Positions 3,355 through 36,437 of a stretch of DNA of 64,000 bases are shown piece by piece. Position 1 is the first letter of the stretch, and each line of letters opens with the position of its first letter. A program made the translations under genes and the position numbers. The notes below the pieces were generated by a model. That model made no database searches. It saw only the letters and a program-made list of their open reading frames with translations, and was not told where the DNA came from. Origin of the DNA: Halomonas alkaliantarctica (lineage in GTDB: Bacteria > Pseudomonadota > Gammaproteobacteria > Pseudomonadales > Halomonadaceae); NCBI RefSeq assembly GCF_029854215.1, contig NZ_CP122961.1:2604001-2668000 (forward strand). The letters are read 5' to 3'.

Positions 3355-5055
3355 TTACGGCGATGAGGCGGCCAGCAACCGGGCTTTATGATCATCCTGC
3401 TGGGGGCGTGCTATCACTGGTCCATCTTGGCTCATTTGCTCCCATCCGGGATATTCGGGGTCATTACCATTGGCATGTCGGCCTGCCTCAGCGACTTCCT
3501 CTACAACACTAAATTGTCCTGCATATTCGCGCATCTGCAAGGCTTCTTGGGATAACACCTCTGCGCTCTGGGCCGCCTGATTGACTAAGCGCATAGTATC
3601 TTGGGTGGTGGTATCGATTTGGATGACCGCTTGGTTAACCTCTTCAATGCCCCGCCGCTGCTCCTCAGAAGCATGGGTGATTTGCGTCATCAGCGTATTC
3701 ACATTACTGGCTGCTTGCATAATCGCCCGAGTATGCTCACCCGCTTGCTGAGACAGTACGCTACCTTGCTGGACACTCGCACTCGACGCTTCAATACGCG
3801 TCCGAATTTCGCTTGCAGCATTGGCACTGCGCGTTGCCAGTGCACGCACCTCGTTAGCGACCACCGCGAATCCACGCCCATGTTCACCGGCACGCGCCGC
3901 TTCAACCGATGCATTGAGCGCTAATATATTGGTTTGAAAAGCAATGCTTTCAATCATTCGAATGATGCTTTGAATCTCTTCGGAGTGATTATTTATCGCT
4001 TCCATGGTGGCGATAAACTGGATAATCACCTCGTCACCCTGCTGCGCTTTATGGGACACATCCGCCGTGGACTGATTAACATGCGCAGCACTTTCAGCAT
4101 TTTGATTCACCGTGGCGGTTAGCTGTTCCAAGCTCGCCGCCATTTGCTGCAAGGCTGATACTTGAGTGTCGGTTTGGCTCGCCAAAAGCTGGTTCTGCTC
4201 GGTCATCTCCTGACTATTGCTATACACCTGCTGGCTGCTCGCATTAAGTCGATTAACCGTGGTCGTCAAAGAGTGCTGCATCTTATCCAGTTCACTAAAT
4301 AGCTGACCAATTTCATTTGATGAGTGCGCCGTTACCGGCGATGACAAGTCACCTTTAGCAATGCGCTGGAAATGCCCAGTGATCGTCTTCAATGGTCGAA
4401 GCACATTTTTACGCACGCCCCATACCACGACTGTCACTACCAACAGCGCAGCACAAAGCGCTGCAATCACACCCCAAAAAAGTAGTGAGGAGACCTGTTC
4501 AAAGCGCATAAGTAAGGCGTTACCCCGCTGAACGGAAGCGTCAAAAAAAGCCTCGGCGCTTGCTACAAAGTGCTGGCTGCTATCATCCACTCGCGACTCA
4601 CCCGAAAAAAAACCAGACACGTCGCGCTCTTCAAGCATCATCATTTGAAGGTTGAGATTATTGTTAACAAATGATTGAAAGTTTGACGCTAACTGGTCAA
4701 CAACCGCCTGCTGATCTTGATCAAAGTCGCTGGCTGTAAATTGATTGAAATTCTCGGTCGCCGCGTCAAGCAAACGGTGGGCTTCTTCTATCAGAGGATC
4801 AGGTCGATCGAACGACGGAGTACGAATTAACTCAGCCGCCCGATTCATCTGAATACGCGCGCGCAACAGCTGGGAGTAGGCGCTATCCAGGTTGCTAATT
4901 TGCGCCATATCCCGTTCATGAAGCGATGTAAATGCTTCACGACCAAAATGGTTGGCGAACAAACCCAGTGCGCCAATGACAACCACCAGGCCGCTAAAGG
5001 CCATTAATACGAGCGTCCAACTCGCCTTGACGCTTAAGTTATTAATCCATTTCAT
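3355..5055 (-). CDS. Methyl-accepting chemotaxis protein
   Basis: A 566-residue chemoreceptor of Tar/Tsr layout: an N-terminal membrane helix (about 10-30), a periplasmic four-helix-bundle sensor (about 35-190) ending in [21 protein letters not shown] as the second membrane helix, a HAMP domain, and a long cytoplasmic coiled coil. The signalling hairpin tip is conserved ([20 protein letters not shown] followed by [12 protein letters not shown]). It would relay an extracellular signal to CheA/CheW. No other chemotaxis gene is adjacent, so this is an orphan receptor, and its ligand cannot be inferred. A short C-terminal tail rich in Asp, Pro and Gln follows the helical domain. Confidence 0.93.
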
Positions 5056-27081: not shown

Positions 27082-29184
27082 ATGAAAGCACAGCAAGGCA
27101 TACCTTCAGGCTTACCCGCTGCACGCTATTATCGCGCTAATGACCCGCAATGGCACTGGTTAGAAGAGCGCGATGACCCACAGGTCAGCGCCTTTTTAGA
27201 GGCCGCCAACCAGCAACAAGCCGATTGGTTTGCCCCGCTTGCCCCGCTGGAGGAAGCGTTATACCAGAGTCACCTGGCGCGCCGCGAATTAGCCGTGACC
27301 AGCCTTAAGACAACGCTTGACCACTTCACGTTCTGGAACGAAACCGGTGCCGAGGATGATTACCCCTGCTGGTGGCGCCACCCCAACCATCAGCCTGAAC
27401 AGCACGAATGCTTTTTTGACGTTAGAGCCCGCGCTGCCGAGCACGACTTTTACGACATGGGCGATATGGCACTCTCACCCGATGAGCAGTGGTTGGCCTG
27501 GACAGAAGATACTCAAGGCGACGAGCGTTTTACCCTGTGGATGAAAGCATTGCCAAGCGGGCCTCCCGTGCAACTGTTAAGCGATATTGGCGCAGGGCTG
27601 TGCTGGGCAGAAGATCAAACTGCCACCACGGCGACGCTGCTGTTCACTCGCTTTGACGACACTCAGCGCCCCGACAGCGTTTGGCGCTTTTCACTTTCGC
27701 TGACGGAGCCTGGCGCCTCAAAAGAGCCAGTTCTGGTGCTACGGGAAGAAGATCCAGAGTTTTGGCTCGGCATCGGCAAAACGCGCTCACGGTCGTGGCT
27801 GCTGCTCGAAAGCGGCTCAAAAGACACCAGTGAAATTCACCTGTTGCCCGCCCACTCGCCTGATTCAGCACCGCGGTGTATTCAACAGCGCCAACCAGGG
27901 GTTGAGTACAACATTGATCACCGCCCTGGCAGCTTTTATCGCCTGCACAACCAAGCAGGCGCTCACTTTCAGCTCGATTTCCTGCCCGAAAATCAGCTTG
28001 GTCAGTCCCAATTGAATTGGCAAACCCTAATCGCCCACCGTGAAGAAGCTACCCTGGAAGGGGTTGATGCGTTCTCTTGGGGGCTGATGCTGGCTGAGCG
28101 CGACCATGCCCAGGCGCAAGTGCGTTTGCGGCGTTTGCTTTTCGATGCCCAGCACAACTGCACCCTGGACGAGACCCTGGCACTACCTGAACAACCCTGT
28201 TCGCAGATGCTGGAAGATGCGCCGCACTTCGATACCCAGGTAGTGCGCCTGCGCGAAGAGTCGTTTACCCAGCCGCCCAGCTGGTTTTCACTCGATCTAA
28301 CCAGTGGCGAACGAACGCTGCTGAAACGAGTACCTGTTTACGGCAATTTACAGCCGGAGCAGCTAGTCAGCCGCCGCCTTTGGGCAACCAGCCGCGATGG
28401 CGAGCAAGTGCCCGTATCGGTGGTGATGCGCGCCGACCTGGCGGATAGGCCCTTACCCACGCTGCTGTATGGCTACGGCGCCTACGGCGAGGCGCTCGAC
28501 CCCTGGTTCTCGATTGCCCGGTTGGAACTGCTTGAACGTGGTGCGGCCTTTGCCGTTGCTCATGTGCGCGGCGGCGGCGAGCGCGGCGAACCCTGGTATT
28601 TAAACGGCAAGATGGCCCACAAGGAGAACAGCTTTAACGATTTCCTGGCCGCCAGGGAGGCGCTTGTGGAGCAGGGTGTCAGTGATTCACAGCGCATAGC
28701 GGCCTATGGCGCCAGCGCTGGAGGGCTGTTGGTCGGCACCTGCATTAATCGTGCCCCGGAAAAGTTTTGTGCCGCGCTGCTAGATGTGCCCTTCTTGGAC
28801 GTACTGCGCACGATGCAGAACCCGGAGTTGCCTCTGACGACCGCAGAGTACAGCGAGTGGGGCAACCCTGAAGAACCAGAGGTCGCCGAACGAATAGCCG
28901 CTTACTCGCCTGTCGATAATATTAAAGAGCAGGCATACCCTGCCCTATGGATTGAGGGCAGTTGGTTCGACACCCGAGTCAGCTACTGGGAGCCAGCCAA
29001 GTTTTATGCCCAAGTATCCCTACAGCAGCAGGGTTCAGCGCCGGTTCTAATGCGTACTGACATGAGCAGCGGACACGGTGGGGCCTCGGGGCGTTTCAAA
29101 GCCTGGCATGATACGGCGCGGCAAGATGCGTTTATTCTTTGGGCGTTGGGCCTTAACGCTCAATCATCTCCAGCTCCTGCATAA
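27082..29184 (+). CDS. ptrB: Protease II (oligopeptidase B)
   Basis: A 700-residue S9A serine peptidase: an N-terminal beta-propeller (about 70-410) followed by an alpha/beta-hydrolase domain. The nucleophile is in AYGASAGGLLVG, the histidine in SSGHGGASGR near the C terminus, and the acidic residue in IEGSWFDTRV. Oligopeptidase B cleaves small peptides after Arg/Lys. The ATG at 27082 is the first; no clear ribosome site is visible. Its last 32 bp overlap the 3' end of the convergent heme oxygenase gene. Confidence 0.93.
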   Translation: MKAQQGIPSGLPAARYYRANDPQWHWLEERDDPQVSAFLEAANQQQADWFAPLAPLEEALYQSHLARRELAVTSLKTTLDHFTFWNETGAEDDYPCWWRHPNHQPEQHECFFDVRARAAEHDFYDMGDMALSPDEQWLAWTEDTQGDERFTLWMKALPSGPPVQLLSDIGAGLCWAEDQTATTATLLFTRFDDTQRPDSVWRFSLSLTEPGASKEPVLVLREEDPEFWLGIGKTRSRSWLLLESGSKDTSEIHLLPAHSPDSAPRCIQQRQPGVEYNIDHRPGSFYRLHNQAGAHFQLDFLPENQLGQSQLNWQTLIAHREEATLEGVDAFSWGLMLAERDHAQAQVRLRRLLFDAQHNCTLDETLALPEQPCSQMLEDAPHFDTQVVRLREESFTQPPSWFSLDLTSGERTLLKRVPVYGNLQPEQLVSRRLWATSRDGEQVPVSVVMRADLADRPLPTLLYGYGAYGEALDPWFSIARLELLERGAAFAVAHVRGGGERGEPWYLNGKMAHKENSFNDFLAAREALVEQGVSDSQRIAAYGASAGGLLVGTCINRAPEKFCAALLDVPFLDVLRTMQNPELPLTTAEYSEWGNPEEPEVAERIAAYSPVDNIKEQAYPALWIEGSWFDTRVSYWEPAKFYAQVSLQQQGSAPVLMRTDMSSGHGGASGRFKAWHDTARQDAFILWALGLNAQSSPAPA

Positions 29185-29716
29185 AGAGCGTAAAGGCCTG
29201 CTGTGCCCCCGCCAATACAGCAGGCCAGGTAGGGGGCGGGCAGTGATACTCAGCGAAATGCCAAAAGTCAGCCCACTGCGCCTCCTCTAAAGGGTGAGTC
29301 GTAAAAAAACGCAGTGGCACCTGATCTCCCATCACGCGCTTAACGTGTCGGGCAATCATGGCACCACCCAAACGCGACCCTTCCAGCACATAGAGCATGC
29401 CTACGATGCTCGCCATACTCTTAGGGAGCGAAGCGCAATGGGGTACGCTCGCATGCTGGCCTAGTTGATCCATATCCGCCTTCAGCAGCGCTGCTCGTTG
29501 AGTGAGGGGGTAATGAGCACCGAGAGCGGTTAAGCCAATACTCAACGCCTCTTCTAAGCTGGCTATCGGCACATAAAGGGCGCTTAACGCAGTGGCATAC
29601 TCAGGCAGTGTTAAATCTCGCTTAAGCAGTGGTTTCAACGCTGGGTGCTGATCTACTCGACGATGGTCGGCACGTGTTTCTCGCTTCAACCATTCGCTAA
29701 GCGTTGGATTACTCAT
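29153..29716 (-). CDS. bphO: Biliverdin-producing heme oxygenase
   Basis: A 187-residue all-helical heme oxygenase. The proximal histidine is His18 in TRADHRRVDQH, and the distal-helix pattern VLEGSRLGGAMIARHV is that of bacterial HemO/BphO. It opens heme to biliverdin, the chromophore of bacteriophytochromes. Its ATG (29714-29716) overlaps the bphP stop by 8 bases, so the two are translationally coupled. It is last in the three-gene operon. Iron acquisition is a possible second role, but nothing around supports it. Confidence 0.92.
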   Translation of the reverse strand: MSNPTLSEWLKRETRADHRRVDQHPALKPLLKRDLTLPEYATALSALYVPIASLEEALSIGLTALGAHYPLTQRAALLKADMDQLGQHASVPHCASLPKSMASIVGMLYVLEGSRLGGAMIARHVKRVMGDQVPLRFFTTHPLEEAQWADFWHFAEYHCPPPTWPAVLAGAQQAFTLFMQELEMIER

Positions 29717-31196
29717 TCGTTGTCCAGCTAAATGACTTTGCCTGTTGAAGTAAGGCACGAAGTTTCAGCAGGTAGATACGAGTACTTGAAAACCAGGGCC
29801 TGCTGTGACCCACACGCTGCTCCACCCAGGCTTCAAATGATCGCCTCGGGGCAATCGCACTGTTGCCATCACGATAGTCGATAGGTTTATCTGGATTACC
29901 GCCCCAGGTGACTTCATAGAGGTATTCCAGCCGGCAAAGATAGAGATTAACGTTGTGATACTGATCCAGAGGCAAATCACTGACTACGGCAACGCCCGCA
30001 ATCTCACTCAATGGCATATCGCCACAATCGCGTTGCAGATTATCGCTTATCCATACGGACGACGTTTCAAACCTGGCTGCCTCGGCGACTACGTTGACAG
30101 CGCTAGCCGATAGCACTGCTCCTCTTTGATGGCACTCACTTCCCACCTGCAAAATAACGCCATCAACACTAAACGTATCCATTAGCCAGCGACTTAGTTC
30201 GGGCCAAGCACTCTCTAGCTCACCATGGCGCATCAACACCGCCTTGGCGTGATCAAACTGGCGCTGCAATCCATCGTATATCTGTAACCGCCGGCGTGCT
30301 TTATAGTCCCGCAAACGTAAATTAAAGGCTTCTGAAAGCGCACTCATGGCCTGTAACTGGCTAACCGTTAACTGTTTTGGCACCGCATTGTGACACGAGA
30401 TAAGCGCATCAAGCTCACCGGCCTGGGTAATGGGGAGAGAAATAGCCGACCCAACGCCCATATTGGCCATATACTCTTGATGAACAGGCGATACGCTGCG
30501 TAGATCAGCCCAGGTAAGATTGGGATTTGATGACTGGCCACGACCAACAATGGCCGCAGGTTCAGCGCTGGCTTGGGGAATAGAGCGCCAGGGGTTTTGT
30601 AAGTAGAGCTGACGTGCCACCTGAGGAATATCGCTGGCCGGGAAACGCAGTCCTAAATAGCTGCCAGTTACCTCCGGCTGGCGGGCTTCCGCCGTTACTT
30701 CACCGTCACCTTCCGGCATAAAGCGGTAATAGTGCACCCTATCGAATCCGCTTAGCGCCAGCAGGGCCACTAATAGCTGTTGGCACTGATTTTCCAGCGC
30801 ATGGCGGTCTTCAGGCACAGGAAAAGCTTCACCCCCCATTGGCATAGGTTCAGCATAAGCATCCACTGGGTAAAGCTCATAGATCAGCTGCTCGCCGTTA
30901 TGACTAATGATCACATCAAACTCTTGCTGCCCAACATTCCCTTGACCAATATAGCGCTCCCCCTGGTTAAGGGGTGGGGCGATATTGTGAACCTCCTCAA
31001 GAAAATCGGGCAGCGGTTGATCTAATAGCTGCTCTATACGCGTATCCAAAGCGAGTAAGCTTGCCAAATTAGCCGACACATGGCTGACAAGTCCTTGAAG
31101 ATCACTCACCACCAGCGCCCCGTGAGGCTGAATAGCGCCGGAAAGATGCAGTTGCTCTTGCTCACACCCTTCAATAAATCTGTCTTGCATGGCCAC
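29709..31196 (-). CDS. bphP: Bacteriophytochrome photosensory core without output domain
   Basis: About 495 residues with PAS (about 10-110), GAF (about 125-300) and PHY (about 310-480) domains, and then the protein ends. The biliverdin-binding cysteine is Cys11 in IEGCEQEQLHLSG. The GAF shows FPASDIPQVARQLYLQNPW and LISCHN, and the PHY tongue motif is PRRSFEAW. Bacteriophytochromes normally continue into a histidine kinase or GGDEF/EAL module; here the stop lies 29 residues after that motif. A GTG at 31196 has the better spacing from AAAGGA; ATG at 31190 is the alternative. It follows the large GGDEF-EAL gene by one base and precedes bphO. Confidence 0.92.
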   Translation of the reverse strand: MAMQDRFIEGCEQEQLHLSGAIQPHGALVVSDLQGLVSHVSANLASLLALDTRIEQLLDQPLPDFLEEVHNIAPPLNQGERYIGQGNVGQQEFDVIISHNGEQLIYELYPVDAYAEPMPMGGEAFPVPEDRHALENQCQQLLVALLALSGFDRVHYYRFMPEGDGEVTAEARQPEVTGSYLGLRFPASDIPQVARQLYLQNPWRSIPQASAEPAAIVGRGQSSNPNLTWADLRSVSPVHQEYMANMGVGSAISLPITQAGELDALISCHNAVPKQLTVSQLQAMSALSEAFNLRLRDYKARRRLQIYDGLQRQFDHAKAVLMRHGELESAWPELSRWLMDTFSVDGVILQVGSECHQRGAVLSASAVNVVAEAARFETSSVWISDNLQRDCGDMPLSEIAGVAVVSDLPLDQYHNVNLYLCRLEYLYEVTWGGNPDKPIDYRDGNSAIAPRRSFEAWVEQRVGHSRPWFSSTRIYLLKLRALLQQAKSFSWTTNE

Positions 31197-31197
31197 G

Positions 31198-34100
31198 TTA
31201 GGAATTCCTTTCCTTATCATCGTTGCTCGGAGGCAGAGCATAGTCCGCTACCAACACGGTAAACTCAGCCAGCGGTAGGGGCCTGGATAATAAATACCCT
31301 TGAACGTAATCACAGCCATTAGCGGTCAACCAATTCAGTTGGGACTGAGTTTCCACTCCCTCACCCACCGTGCGTATGTTAAGCGCTTTGGCCATGCCTA
31401 AAATAGCCAGCGCAATCGCCTGGTCACTTTCATCAGCGCTGCCTAGGCCATCAACAAAGCTTTTGTCGATTTTCAGTTCTGCCAACGGTAGCCGTTTTAG
31501 ATACGCCAGAGAGGAGTAGCCGGTGCCAAAATCATCGACCGCCAGCTTAATACCGGCTTCACGCAGCTTTTCAATATTGCCTAATGCCGCACTTGAGCGA
31601 TCAACAAGCGTACTTTCGGTGATTTCCACCTGGATAAGCTCGTGGGGAACACGGTACTGCTTTAAACAGGAAAACAAGTGGGAGATGAACCGCTCCTCCT
31701 GAAAGCTGCGGGCTGAGACATTCATGGCCACTGGCGGCGGGCGGATGCCATCGGCAAGCCATTGCGCCAACTGATTAACCAACAGCAGTGCGACATGCCG
31801 ATCCAGCTCTAAGATCAAGCCCGTGGCTTCAGCGACAGGTATAAAATCGGCAGGACTTACCGCGCCTAAAACCGGATCGTTCCAGCGCAGTAGCGCCTCG
31901 CCCCCCACAAGCTGGTTAGGGGGCGCACTAGTAAATTTAGGCTGATAGACTAAGTGCAAACGACCTTGTTCCATGCCTTCACGCAGGGCTTGCTCAATGG
32001 CGACGTCACGCATTAAGCGCTCTTGCAGCTCAGGTTTGAACAACTCAAAACGATCGCGGCCATTCTCTTTGGCACGATACATCGCCGTATCGGCAGCTTT
32101 GGTTAGTCCTGCCACATCTTCACCATCATCGGGGCAAAAAGCCAGGCCAATGCTTGAGGTGACAAATAGCGAGTGACGGCGGACTTCAAAAGGTTTGGCA
32201 AGCGACTCAACTATCCGCTTGGCCACCTGCTCGGCACCTTCAATCGTGGTTTCCGTGACGATAATGGTAAATTCATCGCCCCCCAACCGAGCCACGGTGT
32301 CCATATCTCTCACCAGTTCACGAAGTCTAACAGCTACTTGAATCAGCAGTTCATCGCCAACGTCATGACCCAGTGTGTCGTTAATGCTTTTAAAGTTATC
32401 CAGGTCTAGAAACATCAATGCGCTGATTTGATTATTACGTCGGGAGTGGGCAATGGCCACCTGAAGACGGTCTTGAAACAAGGTTCGATTGGGGAGCCCT
32501 GTCAAAGCATCGTGCGTGGCCAGGTACTCTGCGTGCTGCTGGGACTCTTTAATATGAGTGATATCCGAAAATACCGCTACATAGAGCATCTCTTCATGGC
32601 TATCCGGCTCAATACTATTAAGCGTCAACCACTGTGAGAAAAGCGTGCCATCATGCCGGCGGTTCCAAACCTCTCCTTGCCAAAAGCCATGATGCTGAAC
32701 CAGCCCCCATAAAATGTGGCAGGTGGAAGAAGGCTCAGCATCCACACCATTTTCTTGTTCACTGTATAGAATCGGAAGCGCCGGCGTACCCAATACCTGG
32801 TGTGCGGAAAATCCAGTAATCCGCGAAAAAGCAGCATTTACTGACTGCACATTACCCAAGGCATTGATGACAACAATGGCCTCACCCGCCTGCTCGTATA
32901 CTTTGGCGGCCACCTGCATTTCCCGCTCGGCCTGCTTGCGTGATGTAATATCTTCAGCTTCTGTGAGGATCAGATGGGGATGGCCTTGCTCATCGCGCAA
33001 CAGTTGGTGAACCGCCGAGAAAATGCGCACTCCACCTTCAGGAGCGGTCAGCACATGCTCAGCTTTTACCATACGTTGATAGCGCAGCGCCTCAAGGTCA
33101 CATGTCCACAAGGAGCTTGCATAAGTTTCTGGAAATAATTCAAAGGGGGTATGGCCTACAAGCTCATTCTGGGAGAAACCAAACGTATTTAAAAACTGGG
33201 GATTGGCAAAAGTGTAGTGGCCATTGAGATCCTTGAGCGCCATCATCACCGTGCTATTTTCCATGAGTGCATGCAATTGCGCCTGAGACTGGCGTAATTT
33301 GGCCTGCACATGGCTAAGGTCGGTAATATCCATCAGCGTCACTATCAACAGCTCTACTTTGCCCTCGCGACTAACGCCAGGGGTCAGCACTCGTTGCAGC
33401 AACCGCCCTTCAACGTCAACCACGGCCTCTTCCGGCACCCCGCTGGCCATAACACTGACAAGCTGCTCTTCCAAGTTATTGATCGCGGAAGGTAGATTTA
33501 ATCCCGCCACATGCCGCTGAAGGACGGTGGGTCGGAAATTAAAATAGCGCGCCGCAGGTGCATTGTAACGCTTCAGACAGTGGTCGGTATCAAACACCAG
33601 CAGCGGAAAATCAAGCGCATCATAGAGGTAGGTGTACTCTTCGTTAAGCTGCGTCAGCTCACTGGTTTTAACATTTAGCTCTTCATTAAGGCTTATCAAC
33701 TCTTCGTTAGTGGCTTGAAGCTCCTCATTGGCGGCCTCCATCTCTTCATTAGCGGCTTGAAGCTCCTCATTGGACGCCTGCGCCTCTTCATTAAGCGATT
33801 GCATCTCTTCATTGGCCGTGGCCAGCTCTTCAATCAGCGCTTGGAGATGCTCCCGGGTAGCCACCAGTTCATCTTCTAAGCTGTTACTTTTGTCCAGCGG
33901 CAGTGGCTCCATCAACCGATCTAATGCAACATCGGTCACCGGAACAGTGTCGATAACTTGATTCGGTGTCAGAATCACCAGAAGGCGGCGGTCATCATCG
34001 CCCTCTGAGAGTGACCGCACACTGAGCTGCCACCAGCGGTCTTCAAAGCGCCGACGGCGCCCTACCTGAGGCTCTCGCAGCTTCTGAAATTGATGCAACA

Positions 34101-35763
34101 TCGCCATCAGCTCACCGCGAAAAACCGGACTAATCACATCGCTAATGCCCACTTGCGTACGACCAGCGGGAAAATGCAAGAATTTGCCGACGTCACCCGC
34201 AGTATGTAAGACGCTTCCCTGGGTATCGCAAAGAGCAATAGTCGCTTCCATATGGGAAGCCAGCGCATCTAACAGTTGCTGCATATCGTGATTACGCCGA
34301 CGTGAAGGCTGGCTTTCAACGGCCCCCTGCGATGAGCGCACGGCTACTTCGCGACTTTCACCCAGTTTACGAAACAGGCGCTCACGTCTATTAAGCGGCA
34401 TAAATAAACTTTCGGTTTGGGCGATGCTTTCCGAGCGCCCGAGAAATAGCATGCCTCTCGCTCTTAAGCCAAAATGGAAGCGCTGCAGCACCCGCGTCTG
34501 TAATTCATTATTAAAGTAGATCAATACATTACGGCAAGAAACCAAGTTCAAGCGCAAAAACGGTGGGTCATCGACCAAATTATGCTTGGCAAACACCACC
34601 ATATCACGCAGCTCTTTATTGACCTCGTAAGTATGCTCGTCAGCAGTGAAATAACGCTCCACCCACTCGGATGGCAACGCCTCAAGGGCAGCCGCTATAT
34701 AGCGACCACGCCGAGCGATTTCCAAAGCATCTTCATCGATATCAGTAGCAAAAATCTGCACTACCCGGCTGAACTCACCATGCCGCCGCCTGGCTTCGGC
34801 AATCATTAGCGCAATCGAGTAAGCCTCCTCGCCCGTCGCACAACCCGCCACCCAAACCCGAATGGGTTCGCGACTAGCCTCTTGGATAAGGCTATTCACA
34901 GCCCCATCCAAAGCATCAAACGCGGATCTGTCGCGTACAAATGCCGTCACCGAAATTAAAATATCACGGCCTAGCTGCTCTAACTCCGCATGACTTGACT
35001 CCACTAACGATAAATACTGGTGCATATCCGCCACATTAGTGGCAATCAGGCGTCGCCTTATTCGTCGGCTTAACGTGCCTTTTTTATAGCCGGAAAAATC
35101 TAACTGTCGGTGCTCTTTTAATAACGCTAATAAACGTTCCGGGACGAAGGTCTGGTTATCTTCAAGACTTGAACGCTCAAGCCGAGAAAGATCGGCCAAA
35201 CGTGACCCCATCGCCTCTACATCCAATATATAATCAATGACGCCAGCATCTAGCGCCGATTGGGGCATGCCATTGTATTTAGCACTAGCGGGCGTTTGCA
35301 CCATAGTGATACCACCGGCCGCCATAATAGCGCGTAAGCCCGCCGTACCATCAGAGCCTGTGCCCGATAGCACGATACCCACTGCAGCCTCATGGGCATC
35401 CTCCGCTAACGAGATAAAAAACTCGTTTACCGATGGCTTTGGTCCCACATGGGGTTTTATGGGGGTAGTATAAAAAATCCCCTCTTTGATCAAAGCATTG
35501 GTATTCGCTGGCACCACATAGATAACCCCAGATTCAGGGGTTTGATTGTTTTCAAAGCGCTGCACTCGTAAGCGGGTCTCACGACTTAAAATGTCGACCA
35601 GCATACTTTTATGCGTTGGTGATACATGCTGTAACACGACATACGCTAGGGGCATACCTGGATCAAGCGGCTTAATCAATTTTGAAATGGCTTCTAAACC
35701 GCCAGCAGAGGCGCCGATACCCACCACAAGGGGAGAGATTGGAGGGAAGCTGGCAGCAGTCAT
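31198..35763 (-). CDS. CheB-CheR-PAS-GGDEF-EAL hybrid signalling protein
   Basis: A 1521-residue protein. In order: CheB methylesterase (about 8-190; Ser in GIGASAGG, His in QHVSPTHKS, Asp in SGTGSDG), CheR methyltransferase (about 215-480; VAGCATGEEAYS, FATDIDEDAL, SCRNVLIYF), PAS (about 500-615), a coiled coil of repeated NEEL heptads (about 645-720), three PAS domains (about 725-1085), GGDEF (intact GGDEF motif, about 1090-1250) and EAL (EALLRW, about 1265-1510). No receiver or membrane segment is seen. It could both make and degrade cyclic-di-GMP. It is first in the operon with bphP and bphO, so red-light control through the phytochrome is inferred. Confidence 0.92.
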   Translation of the reverse strand: MTAASFPPISPLVVGIGASAGGLEAISKLIKPLDPGMPLAYVVLQHVSPTHKSMLVDILSRETRLRVQRFENNQTPESGVIYVVPANTNALIKEGIFYTTPIKPHVGPKPSVNEFFISLAEDAHEAAVGIVLSGTGSDGTAGLRAIMAAGGITMVQTPASAKYNGMPQSALDAGVIDYILDVEAMGSRLADLSRLERSSLEDNQTFVPERLLALLKEHRQLDFSGYKKGTLSRRIRRRLIATNVADMHQYLSLVESSHAELEQLGRDILISVTAFVRDRSAFDALDGAVNSLIQEASREPIRVWVAGCATGEEAYSIALMIAEARRRHGEFSRVVQIFATDIDEDALEIARRGRYIAAALEALPSEWVERYFTADEHTYEVNKELRDMVVFAKHNLVDDPPFLRLNLVSCRNVLIYFNNELQTRVLQRFHFGLRARGMLFLGRSESIAQTESLFMPLNRRERLFRKLGESREVAVRSSQGAVESQPSRRRNHDMQQLLDALASHMEATIALCDTQGSVLHTAGDVGKFLHFPAGRTQVGISDVISPVFRGELMAMLHQFQKLREPQVGRRRRFEDRWWQLSVRSLSEGDDDRRLLVILTPNQVIDTVPVTDVALDRLMEPLPLDKSNSLEDELVATREHLQALIEELATANEEMQSLNEEAQASNEELQAANEEMEAANEELQATNEELISLNEELNVKTSELTQLNEEYTYLYDALDFPLLVFDTDHCLKRYNAPAARYFNFRPTVLQRHVAGLNLPSAINNLEEQLVSVMASGVPEEAVVDVEGRLLQRVLTPGVSREGKVELLIVTLMDITDLSHVQAKLRQSQAQLHALMENSTVMMALKDLNGHYTFANPQFLNTFGFSQNELVGHTPFELFPETYASSLWTCDLEALRYQRMVKAEHVLTAPEGGVRIFSAVHQLLRDEQGHPHLILTEAEDITSRKQAEREMQVAAKVYEQAGEAIVVINALGNVQSVNAAFSRITGFSAHQVLGTPALPILYSEQENGVDAEPSSTCHILWGLVQHHGFWQGEVWNRRHDGTLFSQWLTLNSIEPDSHEEMLYVAVFSDITHIKESQQHAEYLATHDALTGLPNRTLFQDRLQVAIAHSRRNNQISALMFLDLDNFKSINDTLGHDVGDELLIQVAVRLRELVRDMDTVARLGGDEFTIIVTETTIEGAEQVAKRIVESLAKPFEVRRHSLFVTSSIGLAFCPDDGEDVAGLTKAADTAMYRAKENGRDRFELFKPELQERLMRDVAIEQALREGMEQGRLHLVYQPKFTSAPPNQLVGGEALLRWNDPVLGAVSPADFIPVAEATGLILELDRHVALLLVNQLAQWLADGIRPPPVAMNVSARSFQEERFISHLFSCLKQYRVPHELIQVEITESTLVDRSSAALGNIEKLREAGIKLAVDDFGTGYSSLAYLKRLPLAELKIDKSFVDGLGSADESDQAIALAILGMAKALNIRTVGEGVETQSQLNWLTANGCDYVQGYLLSRPLPLAEFTVLVADYALPPSNDDKERNS

Positions 35764-35899: not shown

Positions 35900-36437
35900 T
35901 TTGGCTACAACTCCAGAATCCATATGCATCTAGTCCTGCTTAAGATTTCAGTTAGTCGTCGTGCTCGATATAGCGCTACTCATGGAGCAGGAAACCAGCG
36001 CAGCTAATGGTGTTTATGCGGTGCATTTTCTTCATTCTAATGGCCACTTGTTGAACGAGGGCGACGGCCTTTTGCCTGCGATATCTATCATGTCACCGGC
36101 AGACGCACTGGCAGAACATACGACGATACTAGCGGTGTTTTTCCCTTGATCTCAGCGGCAGATACCTCAGCGTGAATCGATCAGTTCTCACTCTGCTGGA
36201 AATTAGCGCAGCAGTGAAACCAGCAGTAACGGTATTTTAATTTGCGAGGCTCAACAGCCTGACTACCCTATTTTGTTCGTCAACCCAGCCTTTGTAGCCA
36301 TCACTGGCTATACGCTTGAAGAAGCCATAGGACACAACTGCCGGTTTCTCCAGGGCGAAGACAGCGACCCAAAACATACCGGATTCGCGCCAGCTATTTA
36401 TGAAAATATTTTCCAAAAACCATTCACTCGTCCATGA
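35900..36437 (+). pseudogene. Decayed GAF-LOV photosensor gene remnant
   Basis: In one frame, residues encoded at about 36207-36434 read as the front half of a LOV domain: SSNGILICEAQQPDYPILFV, then the flavin-binding motif GHNCRFLQGEDSD. It stops at TGA 36435. The same frame at 35961-36146 reads like the beginning of a GAF domain (LMEQETSAANGVYAVHFL), with stops at 36147 and 36204 between them. There is no start codon or ribosome site and no C-terminal half. The LOV part is clear; the GAF part is a weaker pattern match. This is best read as the relic of a blue-light sensor. It fills most of the 770-bp gap between the CheB-CheR gene and the 51-residue gene. Confidence 0.65.

Follow-up and report, generated by a model that had tools for sequence, protein, structure and literature searches.

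Phytochrome control of c-di-GMP is known from PadC, where it is achieved by fusion, the PAS-GAF-PHY sensor of the Idiomarina protein controlling a GGDEF domain (excerpts of PMC9587094). Phytochromes have also been described in partnership with separate proteins: BphP1 binds PpsR2, of which Q-PAS1 is the minimal part, and thereby provides a precedent for a phytochrome bound to a separate protein (excerpts of PMC7555876), and Synechocystis Cph2, a phytochrome-family photoreceptor, interacts with the separate diguanylate cyclase Slr1143 (a study cited in PMC8846402). A further group of related proteins comprises the CheB-CheR-PAS hybrids with a histidine kinase or GGDEF-EAL output, some of which are encoded without an adjacent phytochrome.

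The window considered here, i.e. the whole stretch of 64,000 nucleotides of Halomonas alkaliantarctica DNA that was analysed, contains an operon that combines a bacteriophytochrome without an output domain, a heme oxygenase and a giant CheB-CheR-PAS-GGDEF-EAL protein. The operon resembles Idiomarina PadC, whose photosensory module is one of the solved structures closest to its phytochrome; however, PadC is a fusion, whereas here the sensor and the enzyme are separate and the enzyme adds EAL, CheB, CheR and four PAS folds. PpsR2 is a regulator of gene expression without c-di-GMP enzymes, and its likeness to the giant consists in strings of PAS domains and a weak structural similarity. Cph2, unlike the phytochrome described here, carries GGDEF/EAL domains of its own, and the Cph2-Slr1143 system is not known to include a CheB-CheR protein. 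The other CheB-CheR-PAS hybrids share with the giant the CheB-CheR-coil-PAS front half, but the phytochrome-linked giants form nearly their own clade and have distinct PAS-B and PAS-C sequences.

Our preferred reading, to which we assign a probability of about 0.68, is that the operon encodes a two-protein red-light switch, in which the phytochrome acts in trans on the multi-PAS giant and sets its GGDEF/EAL balance. The heme oxygenase would make biliverdin, which the phytochrome would take up via its N-terminal cysteine and which would allow light to toggle the protein between two states; the phytochrome, which has no output domain, would relay its state by binding the giant, perhaps at the coil-PAS-B-PAS-C segment, and this binding would tip the giant's balance between diguanylate cyclase and phosphodiesterase and so alter the c-di-GMP level. 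In the most tentative step, CheR and CheB would methylate and demethylate the coil of the giant that carries them and in this way set the gain of the switch. Biliverdin binding, the contact in trans, the docking site and the effect on the enzymes are what we infer here; action of the phytochrome on the giant in trans, for which the comparative evidence argues, appears highly probable. The data point to an output-less phytochrome lineage that would work through a separate multi-PAS effector, the output of which (GGDEF-EAL or histidine kinase) would have been exchanged in some taxa. In the open-licence literature of PubMed Central we found no description of this operon, nor of phytochromes without output that are linked as a lineage to CheB-CheR-PAS-GGDEF-EAL proteins. 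If our reading is true, the pair would amount to a naturally split light switch for c-di-GMP, of use in optogenetics, and a clean test bed for phytochrome signalling in trans.

Operon layout and domain architecture

The operon consists of three minus-strand genes in the order giant, phytochrome, heme oxygenase, with the following features:

35763-31198, minus strand: giant CheB-CheR-PAS-coil-PAS-PAS-PAS-GGDEF-EAL protein, ATG start, 1521 aa (ORF, Pfam, motifs, predicted structure)
35197..35724, minus strand: CheB methylesterase domain, residues 14-189 (Pfam; motifs)
34393..35139, minus strand: CheR_N/CheR (N-terminal and SAM-binding domains), residues 209-457 (Pfam; conserved motifs)
33961..34242, minus strand: PAS-A, PAS-like fold, about residues 508-601 (predicted structure; missed by Pfam)
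33616..33876, minus strand: 87-residue helix/coiled coil, residues 630-716, with 7-residue NEExxAx repeats; candidate methylation region (predicted structure, sequence)
33322..33627, minus strand: PAS-B (PAS_10), residues 713-814 (Pfam); sequence mainly in phytochrome-linked giants
32932..33261, minus strand: PAS-C (PAS_4), residues 835-944 (Pfam); sequence mainly in phytochrome-linked giants
32557..32883, minus strand: PAS-D (PAS_9), residues 961-1069 (Pfam); nearest solved sequences include the PAS domains of MmoS and NifL
32050..32520, minus strand: GGDEF domain with I-site RxxD, residues 1082-1238 (Pfam; motifs)
31279..31992, minus strand: EAL domain, residues 1258-1495 (Pfam; motifs)
29709..31196, minus strand: output-less bacteriophytochrome PAS-GAF-PHY, GTG start, 495 aa (PAS_2-GAF-PHY, Pfam)
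29153..29716, minus strand: heme oxygenase, ATG start, 187 aa (Heme_oxygenase, Pfam)

The coordinates of the open reading frames bear out the arrangement given in the preliminary description, i.e. three abutting or overlapping genes on one strand with a 1-base gap and an 8-base overlap. The phytochrome ORF as listed starts at 31241, and the GTG at 31196, preceded by AAGGAA, leaves a gap of 1 base between the end of the giant's gene and the beginning of this one; the ATG of the heme oxygenase gene at 29716 lies inside the end of the phytochrome gene (29709), which makes the overlap of 8 bases. The Pfam domains of all three proteins exceed Pfam's own cut-off, and they include the methylesterase, methyltransferase, PAS, GGDEF and EAL domains that had been assigned to the 1521-residue giant. 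A model of the giant's residues 457-1078, calculated on 40 sequences (mean pLDDT 81, pTM 0.39), comprises a PAS-like fold at ~508-601, an uninterrupted 87-residue helix (630-716) and, after it, another three PAS folds. The catalytic motifs of CheB, CheR, GGDEF and EAL, which the same description had found intact, are indeed so and are kept across 52 aligned giants: the letters of GGDEF and of EAL in 52/52 each, the Arg and the Asp of the I-site RxxD in 51/52 and 52/52, Ser19, His46 and Asp138 of CheB in 51/52, 51/52 and 50/52, respectively, and the CheR motifs are likewise present and conserved. Having the GGDEF signature, the I-site, EAL and the further motifs of dual GGDEF-EAL proteins, the giant looks able to make and break c-di-GMP, both activities being predicted from its families.

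The phytochrome exhibits the features of a bacteriophytochrome, i.e. a PAS-GAF-PHY core with the Cys, the Asp of PASDIP, two His and the PHY tongue. We take the biliverdin Cys, the PASDIP Asp, the two chromophore His and the PHY tongue to be the parts that matter; 81/81 short phytochromes share this Cys and Asp, the two His and the Trp of the tongue. Only 31-50 residues follow the PRxSF motif in the 79 short phytochromes measured, which leaves no space for a usual output domain, and the window protein has no domain after PHY and is thus not a fusion of the PadC type. Its model (pLDDT 81, last helix formed by residues 472-488) resembles the photosensory modules of DrBphP, PaBphP, XccBphP and Idiomarina PadC (TM about 0.7-0.76, 25-28% identity), and relatives occur in Halomonas sp. 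NYA30 (92%) and Vreelandella neptunia (88%). Production of biliverdin and photoconversion are to be expected from the families to which the two proteins belong. A different, PAS-GAF-PHY-GGDEF protein (L245 355-2382, plus strand; G000:C1 about 103854-105881; L and G numbers denote loci and genomes) has no Cys near the N-terminus, no PRxSF, and DFP in place of DIP. It recalls the PadC homologue of Halomonas meridiana, described as missing all essential motifs (excerpts of PMC9587094), and many genomes of the genus have remote phytochrome matches whose open frames are about as long.

The neighbours of the operon that were scanned belong to housekeeping families (oligopeptidase-like, YcgN family, acyl carrier protein phosphodiesterase, RNase D). 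A scan of the operon against Rfam gave no family above threshold, and a scan for sigma-70-like promoters, with no match ahead of the giant and 3 in the region vs 8.2 in shuffles, was uninformative. The operon DNA had no phage match at the near setting; 71 plasmid records matched, all at <60% identity, and among the 30 listed of these 71 the identity is <=33% and the named ones are mostly histidine kinases. At 35946-36371 of the window, the plus strand holds a PAS gene broken into three pieces, with the LOV-type motif GHNCRFLQG; the pieces are 76-92% identical to parts of a gene for a 1159-aa PAS-GGDEF-EAL protein of V. neptunia (L039 1513-4989), which has the LOV motif and is divergent from the giant. 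The divergent genes of L043, L045, L046 and L047 have the LOV motif too, but in the corresponding gene of L042 it was not seen. A possible blue-light c-di-GMP gene next to the red-light operon seems to have been lost in the species of the window.

Distribution and lineages of the linked pair

Some phytochrome match is present in 52/82 genomes of the genus and the short form in 14/82, the other 38 having remote matches alone (24-36% identity), most of them in open frames of ~670-700 aa. All of the short-phytochrome genomes (14/14) keep the order giant, phytochrome, heme oxygenase, and a search with a CheB-CheR query found the giant, among the matches listed, in exactly the 14/82 genomes with the short phytochrome, while four other genomes, in which the short phytochrome is absent, have, again among the matches listed, CheB-CheR hybrids of smaller size (859-1005 aa, 38-42% identity). 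The genus genomes are related, hence not independent, and the 14/82 co-occurrence carries no p-value. It includes two damaged copies in otherwise ordered operons, a split phytochrome in G048 (L014), a genome also present in the phylum draw described below, and a frame-broken phytochrome accompanied by a frame-broken giant in G020 (L012); these are perhaps due to decay or to assembly error. In G016 the beginning of CheB is on a different contig, and the phytochrome of G081 is at 45% identity.

Beyond the genus, genome contigs were scanned for loci encoding a relative, and of the 495 obtained the best 80, chosen by likeness to the short phytochrome, were analysed; 78 of these have the short form and two (L114, L117) long fused phytochromes. 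Conservation of the gene order in relatives had been set beforehand as a test of the proposal, and it was found not only in the genus: a CheR-PAS-GGDEF-EAL gene lies directly upstream in 53/78 of these short-phytochrome loci, and in 47 of the 53 it ends at most about 60 bases from the phytochrome start, as estimated from the domain with a 45-base offset in the computed gap. In another 10/78 the giant is cut, split or rearranged: it is partial, owing to a contig end or a frame break, in five (L047, L054, L065, L075, L083), its domains are divided over two upstream genes in two (L077, L091), it lies downstream in L104, and a split CheB-CheR is accompanied by a nearby PAS-GGDEF-EAL in L111 and L113. 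The upstream gene of L103 (1/78) encodes a CheB-CheR-PAS-GAF-histidine kinase-receiver protein, the partner in L112, L115 and L116 is a PAS-histidine kinase hybrid, and L107, one of four loci (4/78, with L048, L060 and L088) in which the contig ends upstream of the phytochrome, has a PAS-histidine kinase downstream, so that five partners have a histidine kinase output. No partner lies directly upstream in 12/78, including L104, L111, L113, L112, L115 and L116; six loci (L074, L081, L089, L093, L095, L108) have neither a giant nor such a kinase directly beside the phytochrome in the stretch examined, and L074 and L081 have a GGDEF ORF 2-4 kb upstream. The one remaining locus, L079, comes from a damaged metagenome-assembled genome (MAG).

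The gene for heme oxygenase was detected next to the phytochrome in 44/78 loci and not in 31/78, while the contig ends there in 3/78, as judged by a one-query search which distant heme oxygenases may escape. This frequent adjacency and the missing output domain would suit a phytochrome that serves mainly as a biliverdin-binding pigment carrier or as a sink for heme degradation, with no part in signalling. Such a role is, however, very improbable, since 80-81/81 short phytochromes retain the PHY tongue and the residues associated with photoconversion, and most of the neighbours found are signalling proteins.

Even draws of genomes, which reduce the effect of choice by likeness and overlap with each other in genomes, yielded the short phytochrome (E <= 1e-60 and an open frame under 600) in 5/398 genomes of the phylum, with the giant beside it in 5/5 (G000, G048, G091, where it is in two frames, G356 and G454), and (E <= 1e-70) in 4/369 genomes of the class, with CheB-CheR beside it in 4/4, including the damaged MAG G613. 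An apparent CheB-CheR-phytochrome fusion in the latter (L079) was rejected as damage or misassembly, since the giant's end and the phytochrome's start are missing and the frame changes, in a MAG; the Idiomarinaceae also have the separate pair (L061, L064, L068, L069, L071, L073), and none of the rows of our 101-row phytochrome tree has a phytochrome fused to CheB-CheR. The earlier wording 'uncommon alternative to fusion' is fair if genomes of the phylum draw are counted, but it understates a recurring lineage.

Phylogenetic trees were calculated quickly, with arbitrary roots and SH-aLRT support only, near-identical and broken loci being omitted from them and from the distance comparison described below. 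Among 101 phytochrome cores every short form, including the 509-aa L166 (the same protein as L205), lies on one side of a branch with 99% SH-aLRT, the other side comprising 28 rows, all long; by this tree the window phytochrome is a member of an output-less lineage. The CheB-CheR tree of 80 rows contains a group of 52 rows, supported at 95% SH-aLRT, which consists of 51 phytochrome-linked proteins and one unlinked protein (L198), and the linked giants thus appear to form essentially one clade. The kinase-output protein of L103 falls within this clade, which argues for an exchange of output in a protein that stayed linked; on the other hand, the split CheB-CheR proteins of L077/L091 and L111/L113 fall outside it, and therefore other CheB-CheR proteins seem to have become linked as well. 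The recurrence of the pair in many distantly related bacteria suggests light control of the messenger via protein-protein contact, and the co-occurrence in the genus and the single-lineage trees fit control in trans. The trees of the giant and of the phytochrome agree in placing Vreelandella zhuhanensis (L056) with Litchfieldella xinjiangensis (L049) instead of with the remaining Vreelandella, which fits a joint transfer of the genes.

Candidate contact region of the phytochrome and the giant

In a single-sequence search with PAS queries taken from the window, PAS-B was found in 54/55 and PAS-C in 55/55 linked giants, compared with PAS-B in 1/10 (weak, L229) and PAS-C in 1/10 (L198) of the GGDEF-EAL giants considered unlinked, i.e. 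those with the phytochrome absent from the stretch of 6.5-14 kb that was fetched; for two of these ten (L208, L239) the genome encodes a linked giant as well. The scores of CheB, CheR, GGDEF and EAL overlap between the two groups. Pfam detected PAS_10 after the coil in 5/5 unlinked giants scanned, and L198 reached the PAS-B threshold in a smaller search, so the difference between linked and unlinked giants is one of sequence and not of domain content. One unlinked giant (L232 2545-8019, minus strand, CheB-CheR-PAS-GGDEF-EAL) includes the LOV motif GRNCRFLQ within its PAS array, a possible light sensor located in cis on a protein of the same type.

Pairwise distances in 29 loci correlate with those of the phytochrome most strongly for GGDEF (r 0.91) and EAL (0.89), followed by PAS-B (0.79), PAS-C (0.77), CheR (0.74), heme oxygenase (0.60), PAS-D (0.51) and CheB (0.38). 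This mirror-tree comparison points to GGDEF-EAL over PAS and disagrees with the PAS signature, and no single site is singled out. PpsR heads the Foldseek list for the model of the giant's PAS-coil region, with a low TM-score; as a docking model it was rejected, since the giant's ~700-1069 (PAS-B to PAS-D) aligns with it at an rmsd of 18 A, and it is kept as a lead only.

The ten giants without an adjacent phytochrome, L198 among them, indicate that a giant can work alone. Together with the six short phytochromes that have neither giant nor kinase directly beside them, and with the resemblance of PAS-D to redox-sensing PAS domains, they speak for an alternative in which the genes are co-regulated neighbours whose products make no contact, the phytochrome having another partner and the giant's PAS domains sensing something else. 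We consider this unlikely in view of the exact co-occurrence in the genus (among the matches listed), the tight neighbourhood across very distant taxa, the nearly single clade of linked giants and the similar divergence of the phytochrome and GGDEF-EAL, and we retain the reading of a phytochrome that acts on the giant in trans.

The coiled coil as a candidate methylation substrate

Conservation within the giant peaks in the coil (638-708), where the mean majority fraction in 52 giants is 0.82, vs 0.72 in GGDEF, 0.69 in CheB, 0.67 in CheR, 0.64 in EAL and 0.52-0.60 in the PAS domains. It contains the repeat N-E-E-[LM]-x-A-[AST] with a period of ~7 residues, and at least three EExx[AGST] motifs at a spacing of seven occur in 58/63 long CheR hybrids vs 0/5096 of the remaining ORFs in these loci, among them 41 signalling ORFs with PAS/GGDEF/EAL. 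The methylation consensus of chemoreceptors is given in excerpts of PMC6829392 as [ASTG][ASTG]xx[EQ][EQ]xx[ASTG][ASTG], the second Glx, at heptad position c, being typically methylated; if the Asn of the repeat is placed at position a and the Leu at d, which is our own assignment, the second Glu of each pair falls at c. The second half of the consensus has five matches in the window giant, all in the coil, a number reached by 1/5000 shuffles. The strict consensus has no match in the window giant, because the first position is Gln or Glu each time; in the 330 aa that follow CheR in 65 giants it has none in 55, one in 9 and two in 1, and it is present in 8/8 methyl-accepting chemotaxis proteins (MCPs) checked of the 21 matched in the genome. 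The coil is thus similar to the published methylation consensus without meeting it.

The conservation of the coil and its near-consensus repeats suggest that CheR and CheB may modify the giant itself, which makes the giant's own coil a candidate substrate. The fuller proposal, that these domains add methyl groups to the EE pairs in the 87-residue coil, remove them again and so turn the protein into a self-adapting light-to-c-di-GMP machine, is tentative and on balance doubtful. If true, it would give the switch formed by the phytochrome and GGDEF-EAL a chemotaxis-like memory within one polypeptide, without MCP, CheA or CheW. No description of a substrate of CheB-CheR-PAS hybrids was found in the excerpts of open-licence PubMed Central literature, and the methylation substrate of a CheB-CheR hybrid becomes directly testable, by mass spectrometry, on one protein.

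Alternatively, the phytochrome could act on the CheB-CheR half, so that light would alter the methylation of ordinary chemoreceptors in a phototaxis-like adaptation, with c-di-GMP as a side output. The CheB/CheR motifs are intact in nearly all of the 52 giants and the genome holds 21 MCP matches, as this would demand; yet the genome has, among the matches listed, separate CheR and CheB, one CheR (89954-90727) adjoining MCPs, the partner kinase in 4 Chromatiaceae loci is without CheB-CheR, and CheB tracks the phytochrome distances least of all, which together render the alternative improbable. The statement that local chemotaxis genes are absent is nearly right, as no MCP, CheA or CheW was found among the ten ORFs scanned with Pfam between 23887 and 39244, but an MCP with a TarH-type sensor and HAMP is encoded in the window at 3355-5055 on the minus strand, 24 kb from the operon. 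Self-methylation, if true of the giant, would extend to the wider class of CheB-CheR-PAS hybrids. The coil motif is also present in hybrids untied to this phytochrome (e.g. L099 2-2218) and hence belongs to CheB-CheR hybrids generally.
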